A DNA stretch of 40,546 nucleotides, taken from NCBI GenBank assembly GCA_024226335.1, contig JAAELY010000047.1, positions 1-40,546 on the forward strand. Reading direction: 5' to 3'. Positions within the stretch are counted from its first letter, which is position 1. The number at the start of each line of letters is the position of its first letter. The notes beneath the pieces are model-generated. The model saw nothing but the letters and a program-made list of their open reading frames with translations. It made no database searches and was not told the DNA's origin. Of this stretch, positions 11,624-32,025 are shown one piece after another. A program made the translations under genes and the position numbers. This DNA is from a bacterium. GTDB lineage: Bacteria; Myxococcota_A; UBA9160; SZUA-336.

Positions 11624-12584
11624 AGAAGACCTGGACGCGCTCGTCCAGGGGGTCCTCGATGCGGACCACACAGCCATCGCGGCGGCGCTGGATTGCTGTG
11701 AGGATACGCGCCCGGGTGCGCTGAAGACTCAACGCGCATTGATCGGTCGGCTGGAGGCGAAGACGCCCGGTGAACACACGGTGGTCGGACTGACCGGGCC
11801 ACCGGGCGTGGGCAAGTCGACGCTCGCGGGTGCGCTGATCCAGCTCTGGCTGGACGCGGGGCTCGGCGCAGGCATGGTCGCGATCGATCCCACCAGTCGG
11901 CGTTCGGGCGGCGCATTGCTGGGCGATCGCGCTCGTCTGCGCTTCGGCGCAAACCAGCGCGTGTTCGTGCGTTCGATGGCGGCCCGCGACCAACTCGGCG
12001 GTCTTGCGCCCGCCACCCGCGCAGCGGTCGTCGTCTTGCGCGCCGCATTCGACTGGACCCTGGTCGAGACCGTGGGCGTGGGTCAATCGGAAATCGACGT
12101 GGAGACGGTCGCCGATTCGGTGGTGCTCGTCCTGCAGCCTGGATCAGGTGACACATTGCAGTTCATGAAGGCGGGCATCCTGGAAATTCCCGACGTGCTG
12201 GTCGTGCACAAGTGGGATCTGGGCGTCCTCGCGGAGCGCACGAAGTCAGACCTCGAGTCGATGCTGGCGATCGTGGCCGATGATCCGAGAGACTGGACTC
12301 CCCGCGTACTCGGCGTGAGCGCGCTCTCGGGCATCGCAGTCAAAGAACTCGCCGAAACACTGCGCGCGCACCGGGCACACCTCGACGCCTCATCGGAACT
12401 CACGCGCAGGCGCAGCGAGAGTCGAGTGGCGTGGGCCATGGAACTGTACCAGCGACGCTTCGGTGGCGAGGGTGTCGAACGCCTGGGCGGAAACGACGCG
12501 CTGCGGGAACTGTGTGAGTCCTCCGCGGGCAGTGCCCTCGACTGTTTTACTGGTCTCGCCAGTCGAGCAGGATTTTCGACGTAG
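11616..12584 (+). CDS. meaB: MeaB-type GTPase, mutase chaperone
   Basis: 322 residues from TTG 11616, overlapping the mutase stop by 8 bp. G3E-family P-loop GTPase that gates cofactor loading and protects the B12 mutase. The P-loop VVGLTGPPGVGKSTLAGAL lies near residue 55-70. The Mg/switch region is AIDPTSRRSGGALLGDRARL, followed by VFVRSMAARDQLGGL and the G3-like DWTLVETVGVGQSEIDV. The base-recognition motif is odd: VVHKWDLG, where MeaB normally has NKxD, so His replaces Asn. The C-terminal helices (AWAMELYQRRFGG) serve dimerisation. Its 3' end overlaps the convergent pyrE gene by 38 bp. Confidence 0.92.
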   Translation: MPEEDLDALVQGVLDADHTAIAAALDCCEDTRPGALKTQRALIGRLEAKTPGEHTVVGLTGPPGVGKSTLAGALIQLWLDAGLGAGMVAIDPTSRRSGGALLGDRARLRFGANQRVFVRSMAARDQLGGLAPATRAAVVVLRAAFDWTLVETVGVGQSEIDVETVADSVVLVLQPGSGDTLQFMKAGILEIPDVLVVHKWDLGVLAERTKSDLESMLAIVADDPRDWTPRVLGVSALSGIAVKELAETLRAHRAHLDASSELTRRRSESRVAWAMELYQRRFGGEGVERLGGNDALRELCESSAGSALDCFTGLASRAGFST

Positions 12585-16414: not shown

Positions 16415-18325
16415 CTAGAGACCGAAGCGCGCGCGGAAGGCCGCGATGTACGCGTCGATCAACGCCTGCAGCCGGGCTCGCTCCGCAGCGTAGTCCGCGT
16501 TGAACGCCACGGTATCGTCCGTATCGATGTCTCCGTCGATGTCGTAGTCGAAAGACTGGCACCTCGCCGAGACCGGAGCGCTGGGATTGAAGAAGATCGT
16601 CCAGCGGCAGACCGCCTGCTGGAACTGATCTGAATGATCGATCATCGCATTGCGGTTCATATCGCCGTGACGTTGATGGATCGTGATGAAGCGATCTGCA
16701 ACGACGTCGGTGTAGGTGGACGAGGTTCCGTCGGTCCACTCGACGTGTAGTTCGTCCAGGGTATCCGACGCGCCGAGGCCGATATGAACCTCCTTCGGCG
16801 TACCCGAAACGAAACTATCACCCGAGAGCAGGTCGCGACGGCGGGTGACACCGCCTGAAGTGGCATAGACCTTGACACCAACACCGTTGCGGTTCTGACC
16901 CATCTTCTGCACGAAGCCGACGCTCAAGTAGTGGCCCTGATCGGTGCTCGTATTCGCGAACAAGCGATGCGCCTCATCGACATTCGTAACGAGCGCATCC
17001 TCATCGCCATCCCGATCGTAGTCGAACGTCACCAGACCTCGGGAGTCCTGCGGAAAGTCCATACCCGTGGGTGTGACGCGGGAGTACATCTGGTTCCCAT
17101 CGTTCATCATGAGGGCCATCGGCTTCATGATGTTCTCGTCCTGTGGGACCATCATCATCAGGAACTGATCCATGCCGTTGGCCGCGAGAATGTCCTGATC
17201 CCCGTCGTTCTCGACGTCGGTGAACTCCACTCCCCAGCCCCAATATGTATGCAACGGCCCGTAGATGAACGTCTCCTTGTCGAAGCGGAGCACGGATTCA
17301 TCGGCGAACTTGTTCACCCAGAGTACGTTGGCACGGTCATGTCCCAGATCGATAACGCTTTGATTGGCGATGTTCGTGGCATAGATATCCAGATCGCCGT
17401 CGTTGTCGAAATCCGTGGCCGTCAAGCCCATATCATTGCCGAGGTGTGGGCTCGGGTTGTACACGCTATCCGTCGCTCTCGTAAAGACACCGCTGTTATT
17501 GACCCAGAATTCATCTTCTGTGTGGTCGATGGCGACGTGAAGATCGGGCCAGCCATCGTCATTGAAATCCGCGAACAACGCGGAGAAGGTGTCGAAGGTA
17601 TTCTTCTCGAGTCCCGCCGCGACCGTGACCTCTTGGAACTTGAAACCGCCCAGGTTGCGGAACAAGAGCAGCGAGCCGGGAAACTGCGGAGCTCCCGTAC
17701 CCGCTTCAAAGGTCCAGTCGGTCGTCACGATGTCCAGCAGACCATCGCGATCGTAGTCGGCCATCGCCATTCCGGCATGCAGATAGCCGATCGGCTGGAA
17801 GCCGGATCCCGCAGTGACGTTGGTAAACGTACTATTGCCGTTATTGCGCAGCAGTTGATTGGGTGGATTGTTGGGATCTCCGTCGTAGTCGTTGACGACC
17901 ACCAGATCGAGATCACCGTCGTCATCCAGATCTGCGAAGCTCGCGATCCGCGAAAGGCCGTCCGTCAGAGCTGCTGTCGCAAGACCGGCCGACGCGGTCA
18001 CATCGCTGAACGTCGCGGAACCCTGATCGAGATTGTTGCGAAACAGGCGGTTCATATGACCGGCAGTTCCGACGAGGTACACGTCGAGATCGCCGTCGTC
18101 ATCGTAGTCATCGACGGCGCCGCCAGCGCCCATGTTTTGCTGCATGAGCGCCTGGGTCATATCGAGATGAGAAAACGGCATGCCGTAGTCACCGACAAAG
18201 TCGATCCCCGACGCGGCCGTCACATCGCTGTACGAAACTGCGCCTAGCGCCGTTCCGGAAGCGAGGACGAAACCCGCCAGTAGTCCACAGATACCACCAA
18301 AGACTTTGCTTGAACGAGTGCCCAT
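16415..18325 (-). CDS. Secreted FG-GAP/VCBS repeat protein with ASPIC/UnbV domain (CRTAC1-like)
   Basis: 636 residues from ATG 18325 with GAGGGAT upstream. A signal peptide (FGGICGLLAGFVLASGTALGA) is followed by many calcium-binding repeats of the form DYDDDGDLDVYLV, DLDDDGDLDLVVV, DYDRDGLLDIVTT, DFNDDGWPDLHVA, DFDNDGDLDIYAT and DYDRDGDEDALVT, which build a beta-propeller. The ASPIC/UnbV segment begins near GQNRNGVGVKVYATSGG and runs through ELHVEWTDGTSS. The C-terminus carries two EF-hand-like loops (GDMNRNAMIDHSDQ and DYDIDGDIDTDD), similar to a dockerin-type module. Likely an extracellular or surface Ca-binding adhesion protein. It stands alone, convergent with the metallothionein gene. 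Confidence 0.88.
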   Translation of the reverse strand: MGTRSSKVFGGICGLLAGFVLASGTALGAVSYSDVTAASGIDFVGDYGMPFSHLDMTQALMQQNMGAGGAVDDYDDDGDLDVYLVGTAGHMNRLFRNNLDQGSATFSDVTASAGLATAALTDGLSRIASFADLDDDGDLDLVVVNDYDGDPNNPPNQLLRNNGNSTFTNVTAGSGFQPIGYLHAGMAMADYDRDGLLDIVTTDWTFEAGTGAPQFPGSLLLFRNLGGFKFQEVTVAAGLEKNTFDTFSALFADFNDDGWPDLHVAIDHTEDEFWVNNSGVFTRATDSVYNPSPHLGNDMGLTATDFDNDGDLDIYATNIANQSVIDLGHDRANVLWVNKFADESVLRFDKETFIYGPLHTYWGWGVEFTDVENDGDQDILAANGMDQFLMMMVPQDENIMKPMALMMNDGNQMYSRVTPTGMDFPQDSRGLVTFDYDRDGDEDALVTNVDEAHRLFANTSTDQGHYLSVGFVQKMGQNRNGVGVKVYATSGGVTRRRDLLSGDSFVSGTPKEVHIGLGASDTLDELHVEWTDGTSSTYTDVVADRFITIHQRHGDMNRNAMIDHSDQFQQAVCRWTIFFNPSAPVSARCQSFDYDIDGDIDTDDTVAFNADYAAERARLQALIDAYIAAFRARFGL

Positions 18326-18645
18326 ATGCAGATCCCTCTTTCCCTGTCCCTTCCACGCCTTCTCGCACCTTCGCCGGCGAACGGGATCGCCGGGCGGTTT
18401 CGAGTTGCACTCCGCTTCAACTCCGAAGAGGTGCGGATGCACCCTTATGAAGTGGCTCCCGATGGGCGAAAGTGACGACAGGACTCAGCTTTTCCGGTTT
18501 CGAACCCATTTTCCATGCGCGCCCATCGCACCGCAAGTTCCATTATGCATTGTGCACCGGGTGCTCTGTGCGGATAGCTGCGCTACGCAACTCGGAGCCA
18601 AGCGAGATGTGCAACTCGTCGGAAAATTCCCCGTCACTACAGGAG
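18326..18645. other. 320 bp intergenic region
   Basis: Lies upstream of the FG-GAP protein gene and downstream of the cytochrome c gene, both on the minus strand. It should hold the promoter of the former, but I cannot pick out convincing -35/-10 boxes, a strong hairpin or a small ORF. Confidence 0.5.
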
Positions 18646-19120: not shown

Positions 19121-19540
19121 ATGAACAGCCTCGAAGAAGGTACCGAGATCCAGCTGGACTTTTCGAAGCTGGCCAAGATCGCACAGACGGGTCAGGACGT
19201 TCTGCCGGTCGTGCTCCAGCACGCCGATAGCGGGGAAGTGCTCTACATCGGGTACGCGAACGAACTGGCGTTGGCCGAGACCCGAACCAAGAAGCAGGCG
19301 GTCCTCTGGTCGACTTCGCGAAACGAACTGTGGCACAAGGGTGCGACTTCCGGTGACTTCCTGGAACTGGTCGAGATCCGCACCAACTGCGAACAGAACT
19401 CGCTGCTCTATCTCGTTCGACCCCGAGCCGGCGGTGCGTGCCACACGAAGAACGCCGACGGTGAGACCCGGCCCACGTGCTACTACCGGCGTTTCCTGGA
19501 ATCCGAGCAGATGGAGTTTACGAAACCAGAGCTTCGCTGA
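19121..19540 (+). CDS. hisI: Phosphoribosyl-AMP cyclohydrolase
   Basis: 139 residues from ATG 19121 with AAGGAG seven bases upstream. Opens the purine ring of phosphoribosyl-AMP in histidine synthesis. The family core is present: VLWSTSRNELWHKGATSGDF, then EIRTNCEQNSLLYLV, GGACHTKN and TCYYRRF. It includes the zinc-binding cysteines (NC, ACH, TCYY) and the substrate-binding SR-ELW-KG-TSG. It lacks a fused HisE domain, and no other his gene is adjacent. The last 23 bp overlap the convergent carboxylase gene. Confidence 0.93.
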   Translation: MNSLEEGTEIQLDFSKLAKIAQTGQDVLPVVLQHADSGEVLYIGYANELALAETRTKKQAVLWSTSRNELWHKGATSGDFLELVEIRTNCEQNSLLYLVRPRAGGACHTKNADGETRPTCYYRRFLESEQMEFTKPELR

Positions 19541-22500
19541 GCCAGCGAATCAAGGTCGGGCGCAGCTGCGCCGGCTCGACCAGGGACTCGAGCGATCCGA
19601 CCTCGAGCGCCCGCTCGACGCTGTGAATCGTGTCGAACTCGGTGGCGAGTTCCGCCTGCTTCTCGAGAATCACGTCACTTACGAGTTGGTCGAGTCGGGC
19701 CCTCCGAGCCACGCGCGCGGCCGTATCGACGGCAGTCTCGACGTCGGCCGTCGCCTCGCGCACGCGCGGATCCGCCAGCGCGCGTTTGCGTACGTCCCTT
19801 GCGAAAACGACCGCGGCCGCGGCCGGCCCACCGATGACCGAAGCAAACGAGCCACTCAGCGCACTCGCACGCATCTGCTCGTTCAACTCGCGGGAGAACA
19901 CGACGTAGGCTCCTCCGTGGTACCGCGTGACCACGACGAAGAGCAGCGGTCCTTCAAAGCGGACGACTGCGCGCGCGATCTCCGCACCGTACTCGAGAAT
20001 GCCTCGTTGCATCGATTCCGGAGAACCGTCGAAACCCGAGAGATTCGCCAGCACGACGGCAGCGCGATTCCCGCTCGCCGCATTCAGTGCTCGCGCCACC
20101 TTCTTCGACGATGCGGGAAACAATGTGCCCGCCGTCCAACTCTCTGGCCCGTGGTTTGGTCGATAACCGAGTCGCGGGAGTGAGCGGCTCTCGATACCGA
20201 CTAGAGCGATCGGAAAGCCACCCAGATGCGAATCCCAGGTAATGGCCATCTCGGCACCGGTCCAATCCCGCCAGCGCTCGATAGATCCGGCATCGGCGTC
20301 TACCAGGGCCCGCATGAGCGGGCGCATGGCAAACGGGCGTTTGCGCTCCGCATTGGCCTGGGAAAAGATATCTCCGACGCGCCGGAAGTCCTCTTCTCCT
20401 TCGTAGACCGCTTGGGTGACGTCCCGATCAGCGGGGTCGGTCGTGCGGAAGGGTCGCGGATGCCTTTCGCCGGGCGATCGGTAACTGCACGCGTGGTGTT
20501 CGAGCAGGATCCCGTATGCGTCGGACAGGTCCCGCGCCTGGTGATGCGCTTCGCCGTTCGGTCCCATGATGCGCTCGTAGCCACCAATGCCGACCTCGTC
20601 TTCGGCGGAAACACCGCCGGAAAACTCGAGTGCCGCGCGGCCGGTCAGTACCATCGACGCACCAGCCAACATGATGAGGATGCCCTTCGACTGCAATCCC
20701 ATCGTGGCCAGCGCGTCAAAATAGCTCTGTGCGCCAACGTTGACGCCGGGCAGGATCAGGTTCACCTCACCGCCGGCGTCGGTGAAAGTCACGAGCTTGC
20801 GCACGACACGCGCCGTCGCGTCGAGATTCTCGGTCCCGCTCTCCATGGCAATACGTGCGCCGGAAGAAACGGCGACCCATTCGACGGGAATGCCCTCGGT
20901 CCGGGCGAGTTCCAACGCGGCGACGATACGATCGCATTCCGGAGCGGCGAGTGCGCCCATGTTCCAGGTCGGATCCCCCAGAATCAACACGCGCCGCATT
21001 CCGGTCGGATGTTTGAGCGTCGGTGTACGAATCACCCCGAAGACGACACCGCAGGTGCTCTCGCCGGGCTCGCGCACGACGCGCACAGCACGCCCGTCGC
21101 GCAGATCGTATTCCTCGAAATCTCCCGGCCCGATTGGACGGCCGAGCGCGTGACTCTCGCCCTCGGGTGGAGCCGTGAACAGGCGGATGATCTCGTAGGG
21201 GTAGACGAGGCCGCGCGCACGCGCGGCGGCCACGCGGCGTTCGTAGGGTGTGGCGGGTTCCAGCGGACGGTCGTGAGGCTCGCGAAAACTCCACTGAACG
21301 CGATTCCCCGATGGATTGCCCGCCAGCACTTCGATCTTGCGCGGTCTCTCACCGGGCGCCACGGGATTCACACTCGCGATCCTGACGATGACCTTCTCGA
21401 GACCGAGGTGACCGGTCTCGGGTGATAGACGTCGCAGTGTCTCGGTGAGCAGTGCATCGCTGAGCACGATCGGCGGCCGGACGAACACGTACAGGCGATT
21501 CCACTGCATGCGCCGCGCGGGATCCTGATTTCCCTGGAGCGAGCGCATCGCCTCGATCGCCTCGTGGAAACGCTGTTCGAAAGCGGGGATGCTCGGCTCC
21601 AAAGGAACTCCGGGGCCGAGATCCGTCACCTCCGAGAAGCACAGGATCCGCTGGTCACCGCTTCCATCCCGGGAGCGGCCGGAGAACGCGAGGATACCGG
21701 GAAAACCAGGCGACTCGATGCGCTCGAGATCGAAATTCTCCAGTCGCCAGATCTCAAAGCGCTGCACCTCTTCCACCGACAGCGAGAGTTGGCGGGCTCG
21801 CTCTTCGAGCATCTCGTGCTTGGGCGGCGGAACCAGGGTGAAGTCGAAATCGATCACCGGGCTCGCGCTCTCGGAGTCGCTCGATCCATTGGGTCGCTCG
21901 AACACGCGGAAGCGCGCCTGCGTTGCGAGATCCGCCACCCTCGCGCCGACGGCATTCCTCAACATCGCCAGGCGATCGAGCACTTCGGAAAGATCGGGAT
22001 GTCGCGAAAACGTCTCTCCGGTCTCGCCGAGGCGAATCAATTGCTGCAGTAACGCGCCGACCAGACGGCTGCGCAACATCAGGGTGGTTCGCGTCGCGTA
22101 GATGCGCAGAACCGCGCGCTCGAGCGCATCGTCGGGTGTCAGCCCCTCCACGTCGTAGTGCTTCAGCGTCCTGCGCAGAAGATCCAGGAATTCCGGAGCG
22201 ATACCCGCGCCCTCGGCTGCGATGCGCCGCAGATACATGGTGAGGCGCGCATCGCTAGATGGCCCCAGTTCGTCGCCGGCCAGGCGCGTGGGCGCACGGC
22301 TGAACAGCGCTTCGATATCGGCGAAGATCTCGAGCATCGCCGCGAGCTGTGAAAGCTCCGCGCGTAGTCCGTCAGAGCCAGCCTCGACGGGTGCCTGCAG
22401 AATCTGGATCAATCGATCGGCTCGTTCGGGGTTCACGTCGTAACCCATGAGCAGACGACGCGACTCGGAGCGCAGAGCGTTTGCGCCCCGAATGCGCACC

Positions 22501-24605
22501 GCAGCTGCCGCTTCGCTCGCCTGCGCGAAACCCACCTGCCCGTCCGCGTCGAAGAAAACGTCGAGCGGGTCATCCTCGAGCGGAAGCTCGAGGGCGTCGG
22601 AGGGTTCGGCTTGCACTCGATCGCCGGAACTCGGCTCGATGATCAAGATGACATCCCCGGCGGAAACGCGGTTTCCGGCGCGTGCGACGACTTCGCGTAC
22701 GACTCCCGCCATGGGTGCAAGCAGGGCCGTTTCCGTCTTCATGGCCTCGAACAGACCGACCCGTTGGCCCGCGCGGACGTTGTCACCCGGTTGCACTGCG
22801 ATCTCGATCAAGAGCGCGGGCGCAGGTGCGCGAACCTTGCCCCCGACATCACTCTCGACACGGTGCAGACAGCCATCGATTTCGATTCGCACTTCGACAG
22901 GCGACTGGCTGATCAGGATCTGGAAGCGCCGCTCGGAGAGGATGAGCACACGCGTATGCTTGTCCTGCTCGAGCAGCGTGACCTCCATGACGCGATCGCC
23001 CATGTACACGCGGTAGGCGTTTCCACCGATTGCGAACACACGCAGGCGATAGGGACAACCGGCGTAGACGAGATCGATCTCGACACCCGACGACGCCGGA
23101 ATCTCGCGCGGGCGCCCGCGACCAGCGGCGGTGAAAAAATTCGTCCGCACCGCCTCGCGTTCGCGCTGGTAGACCTGAATGGCGGCAATCAACAGGGCCT
23201 CGATGCAGGGACGCTGTGAGCGCGCGAGATTCGAACTGTCGAGCCAGTCCGTCTGGACACCGCCGCGACGGAAATCGGAGTGATCGAGCACATCCAACAG
23301 GAAACCCTTGTTGGTCATGCCACCTTCCACCACGACGCGGGCATCGCTGACGGCACGAACGAGGCGGGAACGCGCCTCCTCGCGAGTTGAACCGCGAGCC
23401 AGGATCTTGGCCACCATCGAGTCGAACTCAGGTGGAACCGAATCCCCGGAGACGATACCGGAGTCGACCCGGATGCCGGGACCGGAAGGCAGATCCAATA
23501 GCGCGATGCGACCCGGACTGGGCGCAAATTCCGAGGAAGGATCTTCGGCGCACAGACGTACTTCGATCGCACAGCCGCGCTCTGAAGCCGGTTCCTTGGG
23601 CAAGGCGTCACCACGGGCGATCTTGATCTGCCACTTGACCAGATCCACGTCGGTCAGAAGCTCAGTCACTCCGTGTTCGACCTGCAGCCGGGGGTTCACC
23701 TCCAGGAAGTAGAACCCCTCGCTGGTCACCAGGTATTCGCAAGTGGCCACTCCCGTGTAGCCGACCTCGCGCAGCAGGCGCACCGAGGCTTCGCGCAGCT
23801 CGCTCATCAGGGCATCGGGCAGACCGGGGGGCGGCGCTTCTTCGACGACCTTCTGGTGCTTGCGCTGCACGGAGCAGTCGCGGAGCCCGAGTGCCAGTAC
23901 ATTGCCATGCTCGTCGGCAGCCATCTGGACTTCGACGTGACGGGCTCCGACGATCGCCTTTTCGACGAAGAGCGTGCCATCGCCGAAGGAGTTCTCGGCT
24001 TCGGTTTCAGCGCTGTCGAAAACGGCGTCGAGTCCGTCGAGCGATGTGAGCTTGCGGATGCCGCGACCACCGCCACCGGCGGTCGCCTTCAGCATGGCAG
24101 GAAGCCCGATCTGCTCTACGTGTTCGCGCAGGTTCTGGCGCGTTACGGGGCCACTGCTCCAGGGGGAAACCGGTACACCGGCCCGCTCCGCGATGGTTTT
24201 CGACGTAATCTTGTCGCCGAGCGAGCGCATGGTCGCAGCGGACGGACCGAGAAACGCAATATCGAGTGCTTCGAGCTTCTCTACGAAATCCGGTGCTTCG
24301 GCCAGAAAACCCCAGCCGGGCCAGACACTGTCGGCGTGGGTGGCGCGCAGCGCCGCCAGCACGCGGTCGTGATCCAGATAGGCCGGGCGCATCGCGCCCG
24401 AGGGCCCACGGCGCAGGGCCGGACCCAGGGCCAGCGCCTCGTCCGCCTCGCGCACGAAAGGGCCGAAACGATCGGGATCGGTGTAGAGCGCGATCCCGAC
24501 GAGTTCGCTGCGCTCTTCAGTTCGGAGTTCGCGAACGGCGCGAAGACAGCGTGTAGCTGCCTCACCGCGGTTCAAGACAGCGATTCTCTCGACCTTGTGC
24601 CCCAA
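19518..24605 (-). CDS. Single-chain biotin-dependent acyl-CoA carboxylase (BC-BCCP-CT fusion)
   Basis: 1695 residues from TTG 24605, with AGGGG five bases before it. ATP-dependent carboxylation of acetyl-CoA or propionyl-CoA. Residues ~1-445 are biotin carboxylase: IAVLNRGEAATRCLRA, the ATP-grasp glycine loop KATAGGGGRGIRKL, CSVQRKHQKVVEEAPPPG and EVNPRLQVEHGVTELLTDV. A biotinyl carrier domain has its Lys near residue 620 (LFEAMKTETALL). Residues ~660-1080 form a long helical and mixed region (PRKIEVLAGNP near its end) like the central region of eukaryotic acetyl-CoA carboxylase. Carboxyltransferase N and C halves follow (~1100-1640), with GGEVNLILPGVNVGAQSY, GASMVLTGRAALEFSGG, VGIGGYERIMGPNG, and later LANLSGFDGSPESMQRGILEYG and VVVTRYHGGAYVVFSREL. 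Bacteria usually split these over two to four proteins. Substrate not settled. Confidence 0.9.
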   Translation of the reverse strand: MGHKVERIAVLNRGEAATRCLRAVRELRTEERSELVGIALYTDPDRFGPFVREADEALALGPALRRGPSGAMRPAYLDHDRVLAALRATHADSVWPGWGFLAEAPDFVEKLEALDIAFLGPSAATMRSLGDKITSKTIAERAGVPVSPWSSGPVTRQNLREHVEQIGLPAMLKATAGGGGRGIRKLTSLDGLDAVFDSAETEAENSFGDGTLFVEKAIVGARHVEVQMAADEHGNVLALGLRDCSVQRKHQKVVEEAPPPGLPDALMSELREASVRLLREVGYTGVATCEYLVTSEGFYFLEVNPRLQVEHGVTELLTDVDLVKWQIKIARGDALPKEPASERGCAIEVRLCAEDPSSEFAPSPGRIALLDLPSGPGIRVDSGIVSGDSVPPEFDSMVAKILARGSTREEARSRLVRAVSDARVVVEGGMTNKGFLLDVLDHSDFRRGGVQTDWLDSSNLARSQRPCIEALLIAAIQVYQREREAVRTNFFTAAGRGRPREIPASSGVEIDLVYAGCPYRLRVFAIGGNAYRVYMGDRVMEVTLLEQDKHTRVLILSERRFQILISQSPVEVRIEIDGCLHRVESDVGGKVRAPAPALLIEIAVQPGDNVRAGQRVGLFEAMKTETALLAPMAGVVREVVARAGNRVSAGDVILIIEPSSGDRVQAEPSDALELPLEDDPLDVFFDADGQVGFAQASEAAAAVRIRGANALRSESRRLLMGYDVNPERADRLIQILQAPVEAGSDGLRAELSQLAAMLEIFADIEALFSRAPTRLAGDELGPSSDARLTMYLRRIAAEGAGIAPEFLDLLRRTLKHYDVEGLTPDDALERAVLRIYATRTTLMLRSRLVGALLQQLIRLGETGETFSRHPDLSEVLDRLAMLRNAVGARVADLATQARFRVFERPNGSSDSESASPVIDFDFTLVPPPKHEMLEERARQLSLSVEEVQRFEIWRLENFDLERIESPGFPGILAFSGRSRDGSGDQRILCFSEVTDLGPGVPLEPSIPAFEQRFHEAIEAMRSLQGNQDPARRMQWNRLYVFVRPPIVLSDALLTETLRRLSPETGHLGLEKVIVRIASVNPVAPGERPRKIEVLAGNPSGNRVQWSFREPHDRPLEPATPYERRVAAARARGLVYPYEIIRLFTAPPEGESHALGRPIGPGDFEEYDLRDGRAVRVVREPGESTCGVVFGVIRTPTLKHPTGMRRVLILGDPTWNMGALAAPECDRIVAALELARTEGIPVEWVAVSSGARIAMESGTENLDATARVVRKLVTFTDAGGEVNLILPGVNVGAQSYFDALATMGLQSKGILIMLAGASMVLTGRAALEFSGGVSAEDEVGIGGYERIMGPNGEAHHQARDLSDAYGILLEHHACSYRSPGERHPRPFRTTDPADRDVTQAVYEGEEDFRRVGDIFSQANAERKRPFAMRPLMRALVDADAGSIERWRDWTGAEMAITWDSHLGGFPIALVGIESRSLPRLGYRPNHGPESWTAGTLFPASSKKVARALNAASGNRAAVVLANLSGFDGSPESMQRGILEYGAEIARAVVRFEGPLLFVVVTRYHGGAYVVFSRELNEQMRASALSGSFASVIGGPAAAAVVFARDVRKRALADPRVREATADVETAVDTAARVARRARLDQLVSDVILEKQAELATEFDTIHSVERALEVGSLESLVEPAQLRPTLIRWLSEALVS

Positions 24606-24729: not shown

Positions 24730-26025
24730 TTAGCTCTTGGCTGGCAGGGCTCCGGGAAAGAAGCGACCGAAGCCGAGGAAACACAGGAAGAACAGGCCGA
24801 GGAAGCCCACGCCGATCCCGAGTTCGAGGATCCCGAACGGTGAAACGGAAGCCCCTTCGAGCACCGCAGCCGGCTTCACGATCGACGGCGTGACCAGGAT
24901 GTAGCGCTCGAGCCAGAATCCGAACACCGATCCCGCTGCGACCGTGCCGAGGATGGCGGGAGTCTTCTTCGGTCGCTGACCGAGAAGTACCCAGAACGGC
25001 ACGATCCAGACCAGGATCCAGGCGAACAGCGTGAGTCGCGCGTACGGTTCCGCCACCCGCTCCCAGAAGCCCTCCATGTACCAGGTGTCCTGGAGGAACT
25101 GCGAACCGAGCCGAGCCTGAATGAATCCCGTCTCTTCGGGAATATTCGCGTACCAGATGACGAAGTACTGCGACCAGAACAGGTACATCCAGAAGATCGA
25201 GAACGCGAAGACCATCTTTCCCAGATCGTGGATTCGATCCGTCGTGATCTCGCCCTCGAAATCCGGGTGATTGCGAAATACCAGGCAGATGATGGTGGTC
25301 AGCGAGATCGCCGAAAGAAAACCACCCCATGCGTAGTAGGCCGGGAACATCGTGCTGACCCACTCTGGTGAGAGCGACATGATCATGTCGATGGCGATCA
25401 GCGAGTAGCTGATTGCAAACGACAGGGCGAGCACTGCGGCCAGCTTGCGCAGGCGGCGCTCGGAGGAAGCACGCTCGTGCTCCTCGCCGCGCCAGCCAGA
25501 GGTCCACGCCTGGAACATCGTCTTGCGAAACCCGGTCGCGTTCTCTCGCGCGTTGGCGAGCATCGGCCGGACGCTCAAATACAGGTAGAACATGGAAATG
25601 AACGTGACCCAGAGCAATGCGATCAGGTCTCGCGTGAACGTAAACCCGGGCTCGAACCAGAACTCCTTGCCCGCGATCGGATGATGTGTCCACTCGAAGA
25701 GTTCGTGACGACCGGCGAAGATCACCGCGAACAGGAGCAGACTGACCGGGATATAGGCTCCCATCGAGTCGACGATGCGATGGATCGGTCCCTGCCAGCG
25801 CGCGTTGGTCAGGCGCATGCCCGCCGAAAGCGCGAGCGCTCCCTGGGAAAGCGACCCCCAGAGCAGCCAGTTGTGCAGGAAGACCCGATAAGTCCGGGCG
25901 CTGGTCTCAGAATCCGAACTCAGCAGGCCGGACAGAAGTGTCACTGCTCCGATCAGAACCATGGCGCCGAAGATGGCGACCGGGGTCATCGGCAGGGACC
26001 GAGGTGTTGCGATGTCGGTACTCAC
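24730..26025 (-). CDS. actF: Alternative complex III membrane subunit ActF
   Basis: 431 residues from GTG 26025, six bases after the actE stop. Polytopic NrfD-family protein with about ten membrane helices, for example VAIFGAMVLIGAVTLLSGLL, LLWGSLSQGALALSAGMRL, IPVSLLLFAVIFAG, FTRDLIALLWVTFISMFYLYL and LAAVLALSFAISYSLIAIDMIMSL. FAFSIFWMYLFWSQYFVIWYANIPEE is the ActF hallmark. It is last in the operon after a second NrfD-like subunit (ActC) and ActD, ActE, which separates ActF from ActC. It probably forms part of the quinol-binding membrane core. Confidence 0.92.
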   Translation of the reverse strand: MSTDIATPRSLPMTPVAIFGAMVLIGAVTLLSGLLSSDSETSARTYRVFLHNWLLWGSLSQGALALSAGMRLTNARWQGPIHRIVDSMGAYIPVSLLLFAVIFAGRHELFEWTHHPIAGKEFWFEPGFTFTRDLIALLWVTFISMFYLYLSVRPMLANARENATGFRKTMFQAWTSGWRGEEHERASSERRLRKLAAVLALSFAISYSLIAIDMIMSLSPEWVSTMFPAYYAWGGFLSAISLTTIICLVFRNHPDFEGEITTDRIHDLGKMVFAFSIFWMYLFWSQYFVIWYANIPEETGFIQARLGSQFLQDTWYMEGFWERVAEPYARLTLFAWILVWIVPFWVLLGQRPKKTPAILGTVAAGSVFGFWLERYILVTPSIVKPAAVLEGASVSPFGILELGIGVGFLGLFFLCFLGFGRFFPGALPAKS

Positions 26026-26031
26026 GACAGC

Positions 26032-26586
26032 TTAGCCCTTCTTGAACAGCGTTCGGAGGTAGTTGACGATGTGCCAGCGGTCATCCGAAGGAATCTGTGG
26101 GTAGCCCGGCATCAACGGTTTGCCGTAGCGGATCTTCGTGTACAGCTGGCCGTCGCTATACGCGACGGTGGTCGAAAGCGGAAACGGCGGCGCCCCTGAC
26201 TTCGCCAGAAGACCGGCAATCGGCGTCTTGTCCGGACTGGCCATCCCGTCGTCCGCGTGACACAGCTCGCAGTAGATCCCGTACATCTTCTCGCCGCGCG
26301 CGATCGACGCCGCATCCGCGGCGACTGGATTGGCGAGGTCCTTGACCTCCGGAGCGAACATGGGCATGGCGGCCATCGGATGGCTGCCGGTGATGCGAGG
26401 CGCTATCCCGCCCACCGGGACCGTGCCCTCGGGCGGCATAAGCGGCTGGATGCCTTCCTGGGCCTGGAGCGCTGGCTGCTCCTTCATCTGTGCAAACCAC
26501 TCAGGAGACACCTGTTCCCAGCAACCAAGGCTGAAAAACACTGTCAGCGCGATCGCGATGACGTAGCTCGGCCTATGCTTCGACAA
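26032..26586 (-). CDS. actE: Alternative complex III monohaem cytochrome c subunit ActE (lipoprotein)
   Basis: 184 residues from TTG 26586, with GGAGG six bases upstream inside the end of actD (14 bp overlap). The signal sequence ends in a lipobox (VFFSLGCWEQ), so it is lipid-anchored on the periplasmic side. PEGTVPVGGIAPR is a typical ActE segment before the haem domain. One CxxCH (YCELCHADDG) follows, and the methionine-bearing TKIRYGKPLMPGYPQIPSDDR, then WHIVNYLRTL, ends the class I cytochrome fold. A longer open frame to 26679 has no sensible N-terminus and only overlaps actD. It transfers electrons out of the complex. Confidence 0.9.
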   Translation of the reverse strand: MSKHRPSYVIAIALTVFFSLGCWEQVSPEWFAQMKEQPALQAQEGIQPLMPPEGTVPVGGIAPRITGSHPMAAMPMFAPEVKDLANPVAADAASIARGEKMYGIYCELCHADDGMASPDKTPIAGLLAKSGAPPFPLSTTVAYSDGQLYTKIRYGKPLMPGYPQIPSDDRWHIVNYLRTLFKKG

Positions 26587-27076
26587 CGCGCACCTCCGTC
26601 GAGCCAGACGTCTGCAACAACTCCTGCGCCTGCGATACCTGGTCGGAGTGACAGCGCACAACGCAACCGAACTCGTCACCGCTGAAGCTCGGCTGGTAGG
26701 CGTCGTGTCCCTTCCGCGAAAGAAAGATTCCGTGAATCATCAAACCGGCAACCGTCAGGATGCCGCCCAGAAGGATATTGAGTTCGAAACCTACGATCGT
26801 ATACGCGGGAATCGAGGCGAACGGCTTGCCCCCGATTACCAGAGGCCAGTCGTACGCCATCCAGATCTGCATCGCGTAGCCGATCGTCACACCCGTGAGA
26901 CAACCGATCAGCGTGTAGAGACGCACGGGACTCGGTCCGCGATCGAGCGCGTGCTCGATGTGATGATTGGGCGAGGGCGTGTAGACCTCGAGATCGTTGA
27001 ATCCCTGTTCCTTGAGGGTGTGAATGGCCTTCACGGTCGCGCCCGGCGACTTCAGAACTCCCAGGACCTGTGCCAT
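26573..27076 (-). CDS. actD: Alternative complex III subunit ActD (DUF3341)
   Basis: 167 residues from ATG 27076, overlapping the actC stop by one base. Pattern of the DUF3341 family: an N-terminal soluble part with VLKSPGATVKAIHTLKEQGF and VYTPSPNHHIEHAL, then two membrane helices (LYTLIGCLTGVTIGYAMQIWM and FELNILLGGILTVAGLMIHGI). The C-terminal soluble tail (DEFGCVVRCHSDQVSQAQEL) is periplasmic or cytoplasmic; orientation is not shown. ActD helps hold the two NrfD-like subunits together in known structures. Confidence 0.92.
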   Translation of the reverse strand: MAQVLGVLKSPGATVKAIHTLKEQGFNDLEVYTPSPNHHIEHALDRGPSPVRLYTLIGCLTGVTIGYAMQIWMAYDWPLVIGGKPFASIPAYTIVGFELNILLGGILTVAGLMIHGIFLSRKGHDAYQPSFSGDEFGCVVRCHSDQVSQAQELLQTSGSTEVRVVEA

Positions 27077-28422
27077 CAGTGTGTCCCTCCGGCGGCAGCC
27101 TCTTCAGCTTCGTAGTGGAGTTCCTTGACCTCCTGGATTGCGATGATCGGGAACATGCGCAGGAAGATCAGGAAGAGCATGAAGAACAATCCGAAGCTCG
27201 CCGCCAGAATCGCCAGTTCGGTAACGCTGGGCACGTAGTAGCCCCAGGCGGCCGGGTCATATTCGTGTGAGAGACCGGTCACGATGATCACGTAGCGCTC
27301 GAACCACATACCGATATTGATGAAGATCGACGTCACCCACATGTAGTAGATGTTCGTCCTCATGGACTTGATCCAGAGCGGCAACGGAACGATCACGTTG
27401 CACGTGATCATGATCCAGGTCGAGGTCCAGTGGTAGCCAAAGCCTCGGAACCAGAAACTCATCTGCTCGTACGGGTTCGCCGAATACCAGGCCATGAAGT
27501 ATTCCATGCCGTAGGCGTACCCGACGATCGACGAAGTAAGCAGGATCATCTTGCCCATATTGTCGAAGTGATCGTCGCGCAGATAAGCCTGAAGTCCGAA
27601 GGCCTGGCGCACGGGCACCAGCACGGTGATGACCATCGCGAGACCGGAGAAGATCGCACCCGCGACGAAATACGGAGCAAAGATCGTGGTGTGCCAGCCC
27701 GGAACCAGCGAGGTCGCGAAGTCCCAGGACACGACGGAGTGAACCGAGAGCACCAGTGGCGTTGCCAGACCCGAAAGATGCAAAACAGCGCGCGAATGAT
27801 GCCGCCACTGTTCTGAGGATCCACGCCAGCCGAGCGCCAGTACGCGATACAGATGACGACGCCAGTCTCGAACCCTGTCGCGCGCAGCCGCGATATCGGG
27901 GATCAATCCGACGATGAAGAACAGGATCGAAATCGTCATGTAGGTATTGATCGCGAACAGGTCCCAGACCAGAGGCGATTTGAAGTTCACCCACAGGCCC
28001 CGCTGATTCGGATACGGGATCATGAAGTAGAACTTCCAGACGCGACCGATATGGATCAGCGGGAACATCGCTGCGATCACGACGGCGAAAACGGTCATCG
28101 CCTCGGCGCCGCGGTTGACGGCGTTGCGCCACTTCGCCCTGAAAAGGTATAGAACCGCCGAAATCAGCGTTCCGGCGTGGGCGATTCCGACCCAGAACAC
28201 GAAGGTCGTGATGTACACGCCCCACATGACCGGATGCATGAGTCCGGTAACACCGAACCCGAAATAGGTCTGGTAGAGGAATGCCGCCAGGCCCAGACCG
28301 ACGAGCAACGCACAGAAGAGTACCGCCAGAACATAGAGCGGCGATGGCGGATCCATGACCCGCAGAATGTCGTCGTTGATCTGGTCAGCCGTTATCGGTA
28401 TCGGTTCGGTAATCGCGGCCAT
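27076..28422 (-). CDS. actC: Alternative complex III NrfD-like quinol-binding subunit ActC
   Basis: 448 residues from ATG 28422, with TAGGGAAG upstream overlapping the actB stop. About ten membrane helices, with YVLAVLFCALLVGLGLAAFL first, then MHPVMWGVYITTFVFWVGIAHAGTLISAVLYL, AMTVFAVVIAAMFPLIHIGR, SVHSVVSWDFATSL, YGMEYFMAWYSANPYEQ and NVIVPLPLWIKSM. HAGT and the conserved His/Asp residues near the periplasmic ends are features of the quinol site in NrfD proteins. It connects the Fe-S subunit ActB with the quinol pool. Strong neighbour support from the intact actABCDEF order. Confidence 0.94.
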   Translation of the reverse strand: MAAITEPIPITADQINDDILRVMDPPSPLYVLAVLFCALLVGLGLAAFLYQTYFGFGVTGLMHPVMWGVYITTFVFWVGIAHAGTLISAVLYLFRAKWRNAVNRGAEAMTVFAVVIAAMFPLIHIGRVWKFYFMIPYPNQRGLWVNFKSPLVWDLFAINTYMTISILFFIVGLIPDIAAARDRVRDWRRHLYRVLALGWRGSSEQWRHHSRAVLHLSGLATPLVLSVHSVVSWDFATSLVPGWHTTIFAPYFVAGAIFSGLAMVITVLVPVRQAFGLQAYLRDDHFDNMGKMILLTSSIVGYAYGMEYFMAWYSANPYEQMSFWFRGFGYHWTSTWIMITCNVIVPLPLWIKSMRTNIYYMWVTSIFINIGMWFERYVIIVTGLSHEYDPAAWGYYVPSVTELAILAASFGLFFMLFLIFLRMFPIIAIQEVKELHYEAEEAAAGGTH

Positions 28423-28427
28423 CTTCC

Positions 28428-31400
28428 CTAAGCCTTCTCGTTCCGGAGAATCTTCTTCTGGTATGAGACTCCGGGACGGGTGTAGAGATGTTCGAGTACG
28501 CGATAGGCACGCTTGTCGTGGCGCAGCTTCGCGACCTCACTGCTCTCTTCCTTGAGATTCCCGAATGTGATCGCCTTGGATGGACAGGCCTGCGCGCAGG
28601 CGATGGTAAAGTCGCCGTCCTGCACGTTGCGCCCCTTCTTTCGGGCTTCGTCGCGACCTTCCGCGATGCGGTGGACACAGAGCGTGCACTTTTCCATCAC
28701 TCCCTTGCCGCGGACCGTCACATCGGGATTGAGGATCAGTTCCTCGGGCGCCTCGTACAATAAGTCGTAGGGGCGGTGATTGAACCGACGCGCCTTGTAA
28801 GGGCAGTTGTTCGAGCAGAAACGGGTGCCGAGACAGCGGTTCGGCACCATGACGTTGAGCCCTTCCGGGTTGTGGTACGTCGCGATGGCCGGGCAGACCG
28901 ATTCGCAGGGTGCGGCGCCGCAATGCTGGCACATCATGGGCTCGAAGCGAACATCGACCTGGTCGTCGGCCGTTTCCACGTAGCGCTCGATGCGAATCCA
29001 ATGCATCTCCCGACCAATGCGCGCGTTTTCCGGACCCACCGTAGGCAGGTTGTTCTCGACATTGCAGGCGACGGTGCACGAGTTGCAGCCGCTGCACTTG
29101 TCGAGGTCGATGTTCATACCCCAGCGATACGGGCTTTCGGGATGCGAGTCCTTGGCCGCATCGTACTCCTTGCGCACCAGGTGGGCCTCGTCGCCCTGGA
29201 TCGGCCCCTTCTTGGCGTGCGAATCACCGGCGTCGCCAGCGTGCACTTCGCCGTGCCCATCGCCATGCCCGGAATCCGCTTTGGCCAGTGCGGCCAGCGT
29301 GGCCGCTTTCGCCATTCCGCGGTTTTCCTGACCGAAGGTGAGCTGCGCGCGCGTCACCAGGCCGCGGGCGCCCGTCTTGGAGACCGAAGCTCGCGTCGAC
29401 AAAAATGCCAGAGCACCGCTGGCCCCATCGAGTCGACCGGGAACCAGGCTCAACGCGTTGACCCCGGTGACTTCGCGCTTGGCGCGATAGTCCAGGAATG
29501 CCGGAGCGTCCGGCTGCCGCGCCATCTGACCCTGGCCGATCTGCAACGCGACGACGCCTTTGCGTATGGCCGCGTGGGGATAAGCCGTGACTTCGACCGA
29601 GCCGCTGTCGGTGGAGATCTTCACCACGTCGCCGACCTGGATGCCCAGTTCGTGGGCCTCGTCTTCGTTGATTTCCGCGTAGCTGCCCCACATGGTCTTG
29701 AGAACCGGGTCGGGGACCTCGTTCAGCGAGGCGAAGCGTGCGCTGCGTCCGTCGTAGAAATGCAGTGAGGGATACACGACCAGCGCCATTCCCCCGGCAT
29801 CGCCAGCCAGTTCGGCCGCTTCGAAACGCAGTTTCGAAATCCCCGAACTCAGACTCACCTGCTCGGCTGGTGCGTCTCCGAACTCGCCGCCTTTTGCCAG
29901 CTGAGCATCGAAACCGGCGCCCCATTTCGCCTTGATCTGATCGCGGAAACCACCGGCGGGCAGCGATCCGCCCTTGCCGAGTGCGCGGCCGATTTCGAGC
30001 AGAAGATCGCCGAGTGCCCGCGTGTCGAAGAGCGGCCGGATCGTCGGCTGCTGCAGGCGACGAATGCCGCTTATCGGCTGGGGATCGCCCCAGGATTCAA
30101 AGGGCGTGTGATCGGGCAAGACCAGATCGGCGAGCGCGGTCGTTTCGTCGTTTGCGCTCGAAAAGCTCACCGTGAAGACGCTGCCGGAGCCCATCGCGTC
30201 GCCGAAGCCGACCTGCGGGGCGTTGTAGACGGGATTCGCGTTGTGCACGAGCAGCACGCTGTCATCACCGCCGCGCAGCTGACCGGCGAGTTCCTTCAGG
30301 TCGGCAAAACGCGCGAGCTTGCTGACGTTGTGATTCGGCCCGAATACGACCGTATTGCCGACGGCGCCGCTGACGTGATTGAGAATCTGGACGGCCGCGG
30401 CGAATGCGGCAGCGTTGGTTCCCTGGACTTCGGCTCCAGGAGGCAGCGCGAGCGGAGAACTGGCGGAGGCAATCCGCTCGGCCAGCGCCTGCAGTTTCGA
30501 TTGATCGATACCGGTTTTGACCGCAACCGCGCCGAGTGAATAGTTCGACAGCAGCGGAGCGAGTACTCCGGCGGTTCCCTTGCGCTGAGCCACCTCGTGA
30601 GCCAGCGCGAGCGCGACCTGAATCTCGGTTCCCGGCTCGGGAGCGATCCACTGCTCGGCATTCGAACCCGAGAGGCCGAGCCGCGGCCCGACAAACGCAG
30701 TGAAACCCTTGCCACCCTCACGCGAAGCCGTGTAACGGATCTGGTTCTGCAGCGGGCTGAGCCAGGTTTCGATGAAATCGGTGCCGAAGGCGACGACGAC
30801 GTCGGCCTTGTCGAGTCGGAAGTCAGGAACGGCATCGGTGCCGAAAACGACGCGATTCGCCTCTCTCAGCGCTTCGTAGGCGAACGGTTCGTAGCGCAGC
30901 CTGTTTGGCGAGCCGATCTCGGCCAGGAACTTGTCGATCAACTCATCGAGCGTGCCGCTCTGCCCGTCGCCGAGAAAGAACACCTTGCCCGGTGCCCCGC
31001 GCAGCTTTTCGACCAGCAGCGCAATGCCCTCATCCCAGGTCGTCGGCTGAAGCGCGCCGTCGGCGTCGCGTCGCATCGGACCCCGAAAACGCGTGGAGTC
31101 GTACGTCCGGTGCAACGAAGCCTGACCGCGTACGCACAGAGCGCCCTGGCTGATCGGGTCGTCTGGATTCCCGTCGACCTTGATCGGGCGGCCCTCACGC
31201 GTCTTGACCGTGATACCGCACGCCGCCGGGCACTCCCGACAGGTCGAATTGTAGTAGGTCGCGAGGCCGGGGACGATCTCTTCGGGCTGGTTCAGATACG
31301 GAACGATCTTCTCGACCGGTTCCTTGCACGCAACGGTGGCCGCGGCCCCAGCCGTCATCCCAACGATCTTCAGGAAATCTCTGCGATCGAGATCGGACAT
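28428..31400 (-). CDS. actB: Alternative complex III iron-sulfur subunit ActB (fused molybdopterin-like and Fe-S domains)
   Basis: 990 residues from ATG 31400. A TAT signal (DRRDFLKIVGMTAGAAATVAC) directs folded export to the periplasm. Residues ~45-690 resemble a molybdopterin oxidoreductase (CRECPAACGITVKTREGRP, GALCVRGQASLHRTYDS), which in ActB proteins binds no molybdenum. Residues ~760-980 are a ferredoxin-type domain with four clusters of cysteines: CSGCNSCTVAC, MMCQHCGAAPCESVCP, CLGTRFCSNNCPYKARRF and CTLCVHRIAEG, then ACAQACPSKAI. Full-length fusion as in characterised alternative complex III. A histidine-rich linker (GHGDGHGEVHAGDAGDSH) joins the halves. Confidence 0.95.
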   Translation of the reverse strand: MSDLDRRDFLKIVGMTAGAAATVACKEPVEKIVPYLNQPEEIVPGLATYYNSTCRECPAACGITVKTREGRPIKVDGNPDDPISQGALCVRGQASLHRTYDSTRFRGPMRRDADGALQPTTWDEGIALLVEKLRGAPGKVFFLGDGQSGTLDELIDKFLAEIGSPNRLRYEPFAYEALREANRVVFGTDAVPDFRLDKADVVVAFGTDFIETWLSPLQNQIRYTASREGGKGFTAFVGPRLGLSGSNAEQWIAPEPGTEIQVALALAHEVAQRKGTAGVLAPLLSNYSLGAVAVKTGIDQSKLQALAERIASASSPLALPPGAEVQGTNAAAFAAAVQILNHVSGAVGNTVVFGPNHNVSKLARFADLKELAGQLRGGDDSVLLVHNANPVYNAPQVGFGDAMGSGSVFTVSFSSANDETTALADLVLPDHTPFESWGDPQPISGIRRLQQPTIRPLFDTRALGDLLLEIGRALGKGGSLPAGGFRDQIKAKWGAGFDAQLAKGGEFGDAPAEQVSLSSGISKLRFEAAELAGDAGGMALVVYPSLHFYDGRSARFASLNEVPDPVLKTMWGSYAEINEDEAHELGIQVGDVVKISTDSGSVEVTAYPHAAIRKGVVALQIGQGQMARQPDAPAFLDYRAKREVTGVNALSLVPGRLDGASGALAFLSTRASVSKTGARGLVTRAQLTFGQENRGMAKAATLAALAKADSGHGDGHGEVHAGDAGDSHAKKGPIQGDEAHLVRKEYDAAKDSHPESPYRWGMNIDLDKCSGCNSCTVACNVENNLPTVGPENARIGREMHWIRIERYVETADDQVDVRFEPMMCQHCGAAPCESVCPAIATYHNPEGLNVMVPNRCLGTRFCSNNCPYKARRFNHRPYDLLYEAPEELILNPDVTVRGKGVMEKCTLCVHRIAEGRDEARKKGRNVQDGDFTIACAQACPSKAITFGNLKEESSEVAKLRHDKRAYRVLEHLYTRPGVSYQKKILRNEKA

Positions 31401-31416
31401 CTTCGCGGGTCCCCGG

Positions 31417-32025
31417 CTAGTGGTGGCAGGCGGCGCAGTCGTCGGGCGCGCCGCTTTCGAGATGGCACTCCATGCACCAGCCCATCTCGAGTTTTGCGGT
31501 CGGCAGATACAGACTGCGGGCCGTATAGCGCGTGTCTTCGGTGAGATAGACGCGTTTCATCTCTTCCACCGAACCGTGACAGGTCTGGCATGCGACTCCC
31601 GACTCGACGTGTCGGTAGTGCTTGAACTGCACGTGCTCAGGGAGATTGTGGATCTTCACCCACGGGATTGACTCGCCTTTGCCGTAGTACTCGTGGATCT
31701 TGGCGATCTCGCCGGCGCTGCCCTCAGTGCGACCTTCTTTGATGAAGTTGTGACAGCCGAGACAGACCGATACCGCCGGCACAGTGGCGTGCTGGCTCTT
31801 GTCGGCGGCGCTGTGGCAATAAAGGCAATCGATGCCGAGATTACCGTCAGGCCGCGCTCCGGCGTGGATCTGGTGGTTGAACTCGATCGGCTGTTCAGGG
31901 CCGGTCAGTTCGTCGGGGGTGTAGTCATAAAGCCCCGCCGCCGTAGCACCGAGGACCACCACGAGGGCGCACAACGCCGAAAGAAGTACAAGTGTCCGCT
32001 TGGGGAAACGCATCTGCGGGCGCAC
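31417..32025 (-). CDS. actA: Alternative complex III pentahaem cytochrome c subunit ActA
   Basis: About 202 residues. One N-terminal membrane anchor (TLVLLSALCALVVVLGATAAG) is followed by five CxxCH sites: CLYCH, CLGCH, CQTCH, CMECH and CAACH, the number found in ActA. First gene of the operon. Two starts are possible: GTG 32025 with TAGG upstream, or ATG 32013, which fits better if the promoter at 32025-32053 is real because its -10 box would cover the GTG. The mature protein is unchanged either way. It accepts electrons from ActB and passes them to ActE or a soluble cytochrome. Confidence 0.93.
   Translation of the reverse strand: MRPQMRFPKRTLVLLSALCALVVVLGATAAGLYDYTPDELTGPEQPIEFNHQIHAGARPDGNLGIDCLYCHSAADKSQHATVPAVSVCLGCHNFIKEGRTEGSAGEIAKIHEYYGKGESIPWVKIHNLPEHVQFKHYRHVESGVACQTCHGSVEEMKRVYLTEDTRYTARSLYLPTAKLEMGWCMECHLESGAPDDCAACHH

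Follow-up and report, generated by a model that had tools for sequence, protein, structure and literature searches.

The window analysed here, a 40,546-nucleotide stretch from a Myxococcota bacterium, raises the question of how a bacterium comes to carry an acyl-CoA carboxylase built like the eukaryotic acetyl-CoA carboxylase (ACC), and what such an enzyme does in its host. The fusion of catalytic parts in eukaryotic ACC has so far been either traced to an event in the eukaryotes themselves or regarded as a legacy of actinobacteria, and Myxococcota have already been discussed for eukaryote-like sterol synthesis. A first-pass annotation had proposed that the biotin carboxylase (BC), the biotin carrier and both carboxyltransferase (CT) halves lie on a single chain with a eukaryote-like central region, that the enzyme may be specific to its lineage and broad in substrate range, and that it may be relevant to the origin of the eukaryotic fusion. 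The reading that we favour with good confidence is that the reading frame encodes the main ACC of its host, probably acting on propionyl-CoA as well, and that it belongs to a bacterial multidomain family whose homology with eukaryotic ACC extends over the full length, the window's own family within it having lost one part of the central region, CDC1.

Gene and domain content

The carboxylase is encoded on the minus strand at 19518-24605 by a single uninterrupted open reading frame of 1695 residues. Translation would start at a TTG codon at 24605, with a Shine-Dalgarno-like AGGGG 5 nt ahead of it, and end at the stop at 19518; GC content by codon position is strongly uneven (0.71/0.48/0.74). 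Eight same-family genomes besides the window's carry the gene. Over the entire chain the full-length copies compared share 62-69% identity, so the gene is real and no artefact of assembly.

Pfam searches placed Biotin_carb_N, CPSase_L_D2 and Biotin_carb_C at residues 5-456, Biotin_lipoyl at 590-656 and Carboxyl_trans at 1202-1649, and found no match between residues 660 and 1200. Reading along the minus strand, the chain begins with the BC domain (residues 5-461; 23223-24593), supported by Pfam, alignment and trees, and continues through a BT-like linker (residues 462-586; 22848-23222) recognised by alignment to methylcrotonyl-CoA carboxylase alpha, 3u9s. The biotin carboxyl carrier domain follows (residues 587-660; 22626-22847, from Biotin_lipoyl), in which the motif EAMKT marks Lys623 as the residue carrying biotin (codon 22737-22739). 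Both CT halves, fused, make up the far end (residues 1145-1690; 19536-21173), as determined from Pfam and PDB searches. The order BC, carrier, CT is that of the single chains of about 200 kDa that characterise this type of enzyme, here with a mass of 185 kDa. The reading frame, the Pfam matches, the biotin motif and the same-family copies all bear out the proposal that these parts share one polypeptide. A region between carrier and CT is also present as proposed, but the estimate of ~400 residues was too low, since it spans about 480 (roughly 661-1144).

The central region and the missing CDC1 domain

Used as a single-sequence query against the PDB, the central region returned no match, and neither it nor the window's genome gave a Pfam ACC_central match at the usual threshold. 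A profile built from the window's sequence and those of 14 class members had nine PDB matches, every one of them the central domain of a eukaryotic ACC (best E 7e-14), and ACC_central was matched by 9 of 15 central regions from the class (best 1.1e-13). We modelled the window's 506 central residues with AlphaFold, using an alignment with 34 relatives from the genome scan, and obtained a mean pLDDT of 82. In Foldseek, all 31 PDB chains that this model matched at E < 0.001 were eukaryotic ACC, the best being yeast (4.8e-10), while the next match stood at E 0.08. Over the whole region the TM-scores stayed modest (up to 0.44), which hinged domains and the absence of one of them would lead one to expect; the resemblance lies in the individual domains. 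For L122, a Myxococcales relative whose central region is full-size (645 residues, pLDDT 87), the corresponding E-value was 6e-23. Judged by profiles and models, the central regions of the window's family and of eukaryotic ACC are homologous, with only CDN, a remnant of CDL and CDC2 kept in the window enzyme. The family profile, the ACC_central matches in relatives and the AlphaFold model therefore upheld the suggestion of a eukaryote-like architecture, and the structural comparison that the first-pass annotation had recommended pointed to eukaryotic ACC alone.

The missing part was identified by comparison with enzymes whose central region is complete. In yeast this region consists of CDN, CDL, CDC1 and CDC2, and CDC1, which packs against CDL, contains the regulatory loop with Ser1157 (PMC4833862). 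The window enzyme has a CDN-like helical part (residues 705-881; 21963-22493, minus strand), recognised by an HMM from relatives, the model and Foldseek, and a CDC2-like alpha/beta domain (residues 947-1144; 21174-21767, minus strand) supported by the same three sources. Between them lies a short CDL remnant (21768-21962, minus strand) with the site of ~160 missing residues at about residues 903-936, as seen in alignments and as a gap in the HMM match. The alignment and the models indicate that the window enzyme has no counterpart of L122 residues of about 242-266 and 278-438, stretches that comprise the last part of CDL and the whole of CDC1; the window model contains one alpha/beta domain and the L122 model two.

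These ~160 residues are absent from all window-family members that we measured. The spacing between the CDN and CDC2 matches was 62-71 residues in each of the eight, compared with about 215-250 in class siblings, all of which are full. A complete central region including CDC1 was found in 34 of 34 aligned members from other lineages, though it is not given as defining in PMC6491548, and the window enzyme lacks it; it likewise lacks the four-part arrangement of eukaryotic ACC, CDN-CDL-CDC1-CDC2 with the regulatory loop in CDC1. Shortened central regions also occur in two further Myxococcota families, f17 (G125, G101, G202, G252, G113 and G097) and f15 (G266) (loci L148-L153 and L164), as read from profile matches alone. 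The CT tree, of 76 rows, takes no fewer than four changes to account for the short state, each forced by well-supported branches: one in the window's family, one in an f15 member and two in f17 groups that are split by a full-size f24 member. Loss is likelier than gain, so that there were probably at least three losses. The window's family carries a naturally trimmed eukaryote-type scaffold without CDC1, and probably lacks control of the yeast type.

Relationships of the BC and CT domains

The BC domain carries the motifs WPGWG, LGDKI and PWS, corresponding to WxGWG, LGDKI and PWS in eukaryotic ACC, whereas ordinary BCs have HPGYGF, MGDK and PG. In the BC trees, ordinary BCs formed one group (support 100/99) and the bacterial multidomain family another, with the eukaryotes on a long branch between them that joins at the base of the multidomain family. 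PDB alignments served as the source of the eukaryotic sequences, some unaligned stretches of which are absent, and the BCs of pyruvate and urea carboxylases were left out of these trees. Trees that forced the eukaryotes into ordinary BC groups were rejected (AU p 0.0003, 0.001 and 0.02); nesting the eukaryotes within one or the other half of the bacterial multidomain family was not (p 0.13 and 0.15).

For the CT domain, a profile searched against the PDB gave 6e-29 for eukaryotic ACC CT, whereas the best-scoring beta subunit from bacteria reached 6e-14, and the nearest solved structures are those of eukaryotic ACC CT. Identity is 54-56% to the nearest relatives (from Actinomycetota, Acidobacteriota and a Myxococcales MAG), about 53-56% to the nearest actinobacterial sequences alone and only about 26% to the yeast CT; where the eukaryotic CT has ELRGGSWVV, the window CT reads RYHGGAYVV. 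The window CT groups with the actinobacterial multidomain CTs in a single clade that excludes PccB-type sequences (support 100/99). With a PccB outgroup the branches of the CT tree are about 5 changes per column long, so this tree gives nothing firm on where the eukaryotes belong, and we judged their relationship from the BC tree and from similarity. Ordinary bacterial subunits are, by these measures, more distant from both BC and CT than eukaryotic ACC is, with the long branches calling for caution, and both domains branch outside ordinary PccA and PccB in the tree comparison that the first-pass annotation had called for.

If ordinary PccA and PccB subunits had fused independently to give this enzyme, its likeness to eukaryotic ACC would be convergent. 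A fusion of this kind was proposed for eukaryotic ACC by Huang et al., as cited in PMC3199775, and the first match of the BC domain in a single-sequence search was indeed methylcrotonyl-CoA carboxylase alpha. Profile, family model and fold nevertheless all show the central region to be homologous to the eukaryotic CD, the three BC motifs are common to eukaryotes and absent from ordinary BCs, the grouping of eukaryotes with ordinary BCs is rejected, and the CT lies nearer to the eukaryotic CT. Tested against this evidence, a convergent fusion is disfavoured and we regard it as barely credible. On these grounds common ancestry of the eukaryotic and the bacterial multidomain ACCs is well supported.

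A fused eukaryote-like ACC is not an unreported kind in bacteria. SACE_4237 of Saccharopolyspora, purified by Livieri et al. in 2019, is a homodimeric, essential, eukaryote-like ACC that carboxylates acetyl- and propionyl-CoA with similar efficiency, does not accept palmitoyl-CoA and complements an E. coli ACC mutant (PMC6491548). Its family of actinobacterial homodimeric ACCs, through which the comparison with SACE_4237 was made, shares with the window enzyme the arrangement of BC, carrier, central region and CT on one chain, the clustering of CT with eukaryotic ACC and a CD-homologous central region. It differs in its length of about 1830-1900 residues, against about 1695 in the window enzyme, where CDC1 is missing along with the last part of CDL; the window enzyme also belongs to a Myxococcota host and a separate clade. 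Eukaryotic ACC (yeast Acc1, human ACC1) has the same domain order, central-domain homology, BC motifs and CT type, but also the CDC1 domain and regulatory phospho-loop that the window enzyme lacks. Two other bacterial single-chain biotin-dependent acyl-CoA carboxylases, LCC and Shewanella AccS, are without a eukaryote-type central region and have another domain arrangement or order (PMC6491548, PMC11602165). The heteromeric PccAB, MCC and AccABCD systems have homologous BC, carrier and CT chemistry; they differ in their split subunits, ordinary BC motifs and want of a central region, and the window's domains branch elsewhere.

Proposed function, distribution and origin

In the mechanism that we propose, the BC domain would carboxylate biotin on Lys623 of the carrier using ATP and bicarbonate, the carrier, in a homodimer, would swing to the fused CT, and the CT would pass the carboxyl group to acetyl-CoA, yielding malonyl-CoA for fatty acid synthesis. 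CDN, the CDL remnant and CDC2 would have no part in catalysis and would serve as a scaffold fixing how far apart BC and CT lie. Carboxylase activity, substrate and dimeric state are in this scheme inferred, as is the role of main ACC. No AccA, AccD or AccB over the cut-off was found in the window's genome, an absence that is uncertain because the draft is in 556 contigs; FabD is present. AccA over the cut-off was likewise absent from 79 of 80 relatives. The sole relative with AccA (G067) has only a weak multidomain ACC match, and replacement is possible in either direction. The multidomain enzyme is probably the main ACC, being near universal in a class where canonical AccA hardly occurs.

Other carboxylases in the same genome might supply malonyl-CoA instead, which counts against this role. 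Contig C49 encodes a heteromeric acyl-CoA carboxylase (BC, carrier-like frame and CT) that looks PccAB-like. Another single-chain enzyme, with BC and carrier on about 1163 aa, is encoded at C318:4410-7490 (L003, L055); it looks LCC-like, and its BC sits on a long branch of the BC tree. The window itself contains a methylmalonyl-CoA mutase gene with a B12-binding domain (9683-11623, plus strand), overlapping a MeaB GTPase gene (11616-12584, plus strand), about 7 kb from the carboxylase, so that propionyl-CoA could be the main substrate. On this account the enzyme would mainly carboxylate propionyl-CoA, or another short acyl-CoA, and feed the mutase, and the C49 enzyme would make malonyl-CoA; the separate BC/CT pair on C49 and the similar efficiency of SACE_4237 on the two substrates (PMC6491548) agree with it. 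The mutase genes, however, lie on the opposite strand with unrelated genes between, the C49 pair is of PccAB-like appearance, and near-universal presence in a class lacking AccA suits an essential ACC better. We therefore consider a mainly propionyl-CoA-directed enzyme unlikely, though worth keeping in view, and prefer the role of main ACC.

Directly upstream of the carboxylase on the same strand, after a 124-nt gap, 24730-32025 (minus strand) holds respiratory-operon genes of the alternative complex III type, comprising a multihaem cytochrome, a molybdopterin/Fe-S protein, NrfD, ActD and a further membrane protein. Downstream, 16415-18442 (minus strand) encodes an FG-GAP / ASPIC-UnbV repeat protein.

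The idea of a lineage-specific enzyme did not survive a wider search, which found hundreds of relatives across at least three phyla. The genome scan, confirmed with the yeast CT, gave at least 565 relatives, of which 80 were kept, mostly from Actinomycetota, with others from Acidobacteriota and a Myxococcales MAG. We place the window's genome in the phylum of this MAG, Myxococcota, because the sample of that phylum contains contigs and coordinates, such as C324:7169-7525, that also occur among the window's own relatives. Among 80 close relatives of the window's bacterium, 77 had some match, mostly to full multidomain enzymes, the few weak matches being ordinary CTs. The multidomain ACC is near universal in the window's class, and patchy elsewhere in Myxococcota. 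Some class genomes contain two paralogues (G003, C27 and C28, L040 and L041; G014, C4 and C16, L049 and L050). A divergent second copy (B) groups with Actinomycetota and Acidobacteriota, and the window type with the main class copy.

End-to-end homology would also be expected if the gene had moved from a eukaryote into bacteria, and the trees leave the direction of descent unfixed because the eukaryotic branch is very long. Against such a transfer, the bacterial family is old and diverse, extending over three phyla and including, inside a single phylum, full-length CT matches whose identity falls to about 46-50%; the low CT identity to yeast also speaks against it, as do the eukaryotes' position at the base of the bacterial clade and outside it, nesting not being rejected. 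We hold a eukaryotic source to be very improbable, and prefer a bacterial family that shares an ancestor with eukaryotic ACC.

In both the BC and the CT trees, Actinomycetota lie inside one clade and Myxococcota occupy the remaining branches, the window-family clade being distinct from the actinobacterial one. Within our sample, Actinomycetota thus appear nested in a wider Myxococcota diversity. This hints, short of proof under such uneven sampling, that the origin was not the purely actinobacterial one proposed in PMC6491548. We found no earlier report of a Myxococcota multidomain ACC in the open-licence literature; the CDC1-less variant and the breadth in Myxococcota appear to be the new part of a kind that is otherwise known. 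More speculatively, the full-scaffold fused ACC may have diversified first in Myxococcota-like bacteria, with the actinobacterial forms a later offshoot and the eukaryotic enzyme drawn from this stock, and CDC1 may have been discarded independently in several lineages as a dispensable regulatory add-on outside the catalytic scaffold.

The expectation that the locus would bear on the origin of the eukaryotic fusion is supported. Another testable source for eukaryotic ACC is offered by Myxococcota, whose branch of the family is diverse and, in one class, near universal. The CDC1-less variants amount to deletions made by nature: should they prove active, the domain of yeast phospho-control would be unneeded for catalysis. 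The trimmed enzyme of a myxobacterium-related organism therefore bears both on where eukaryotic ACC came from and on which of its parts are dispensable.
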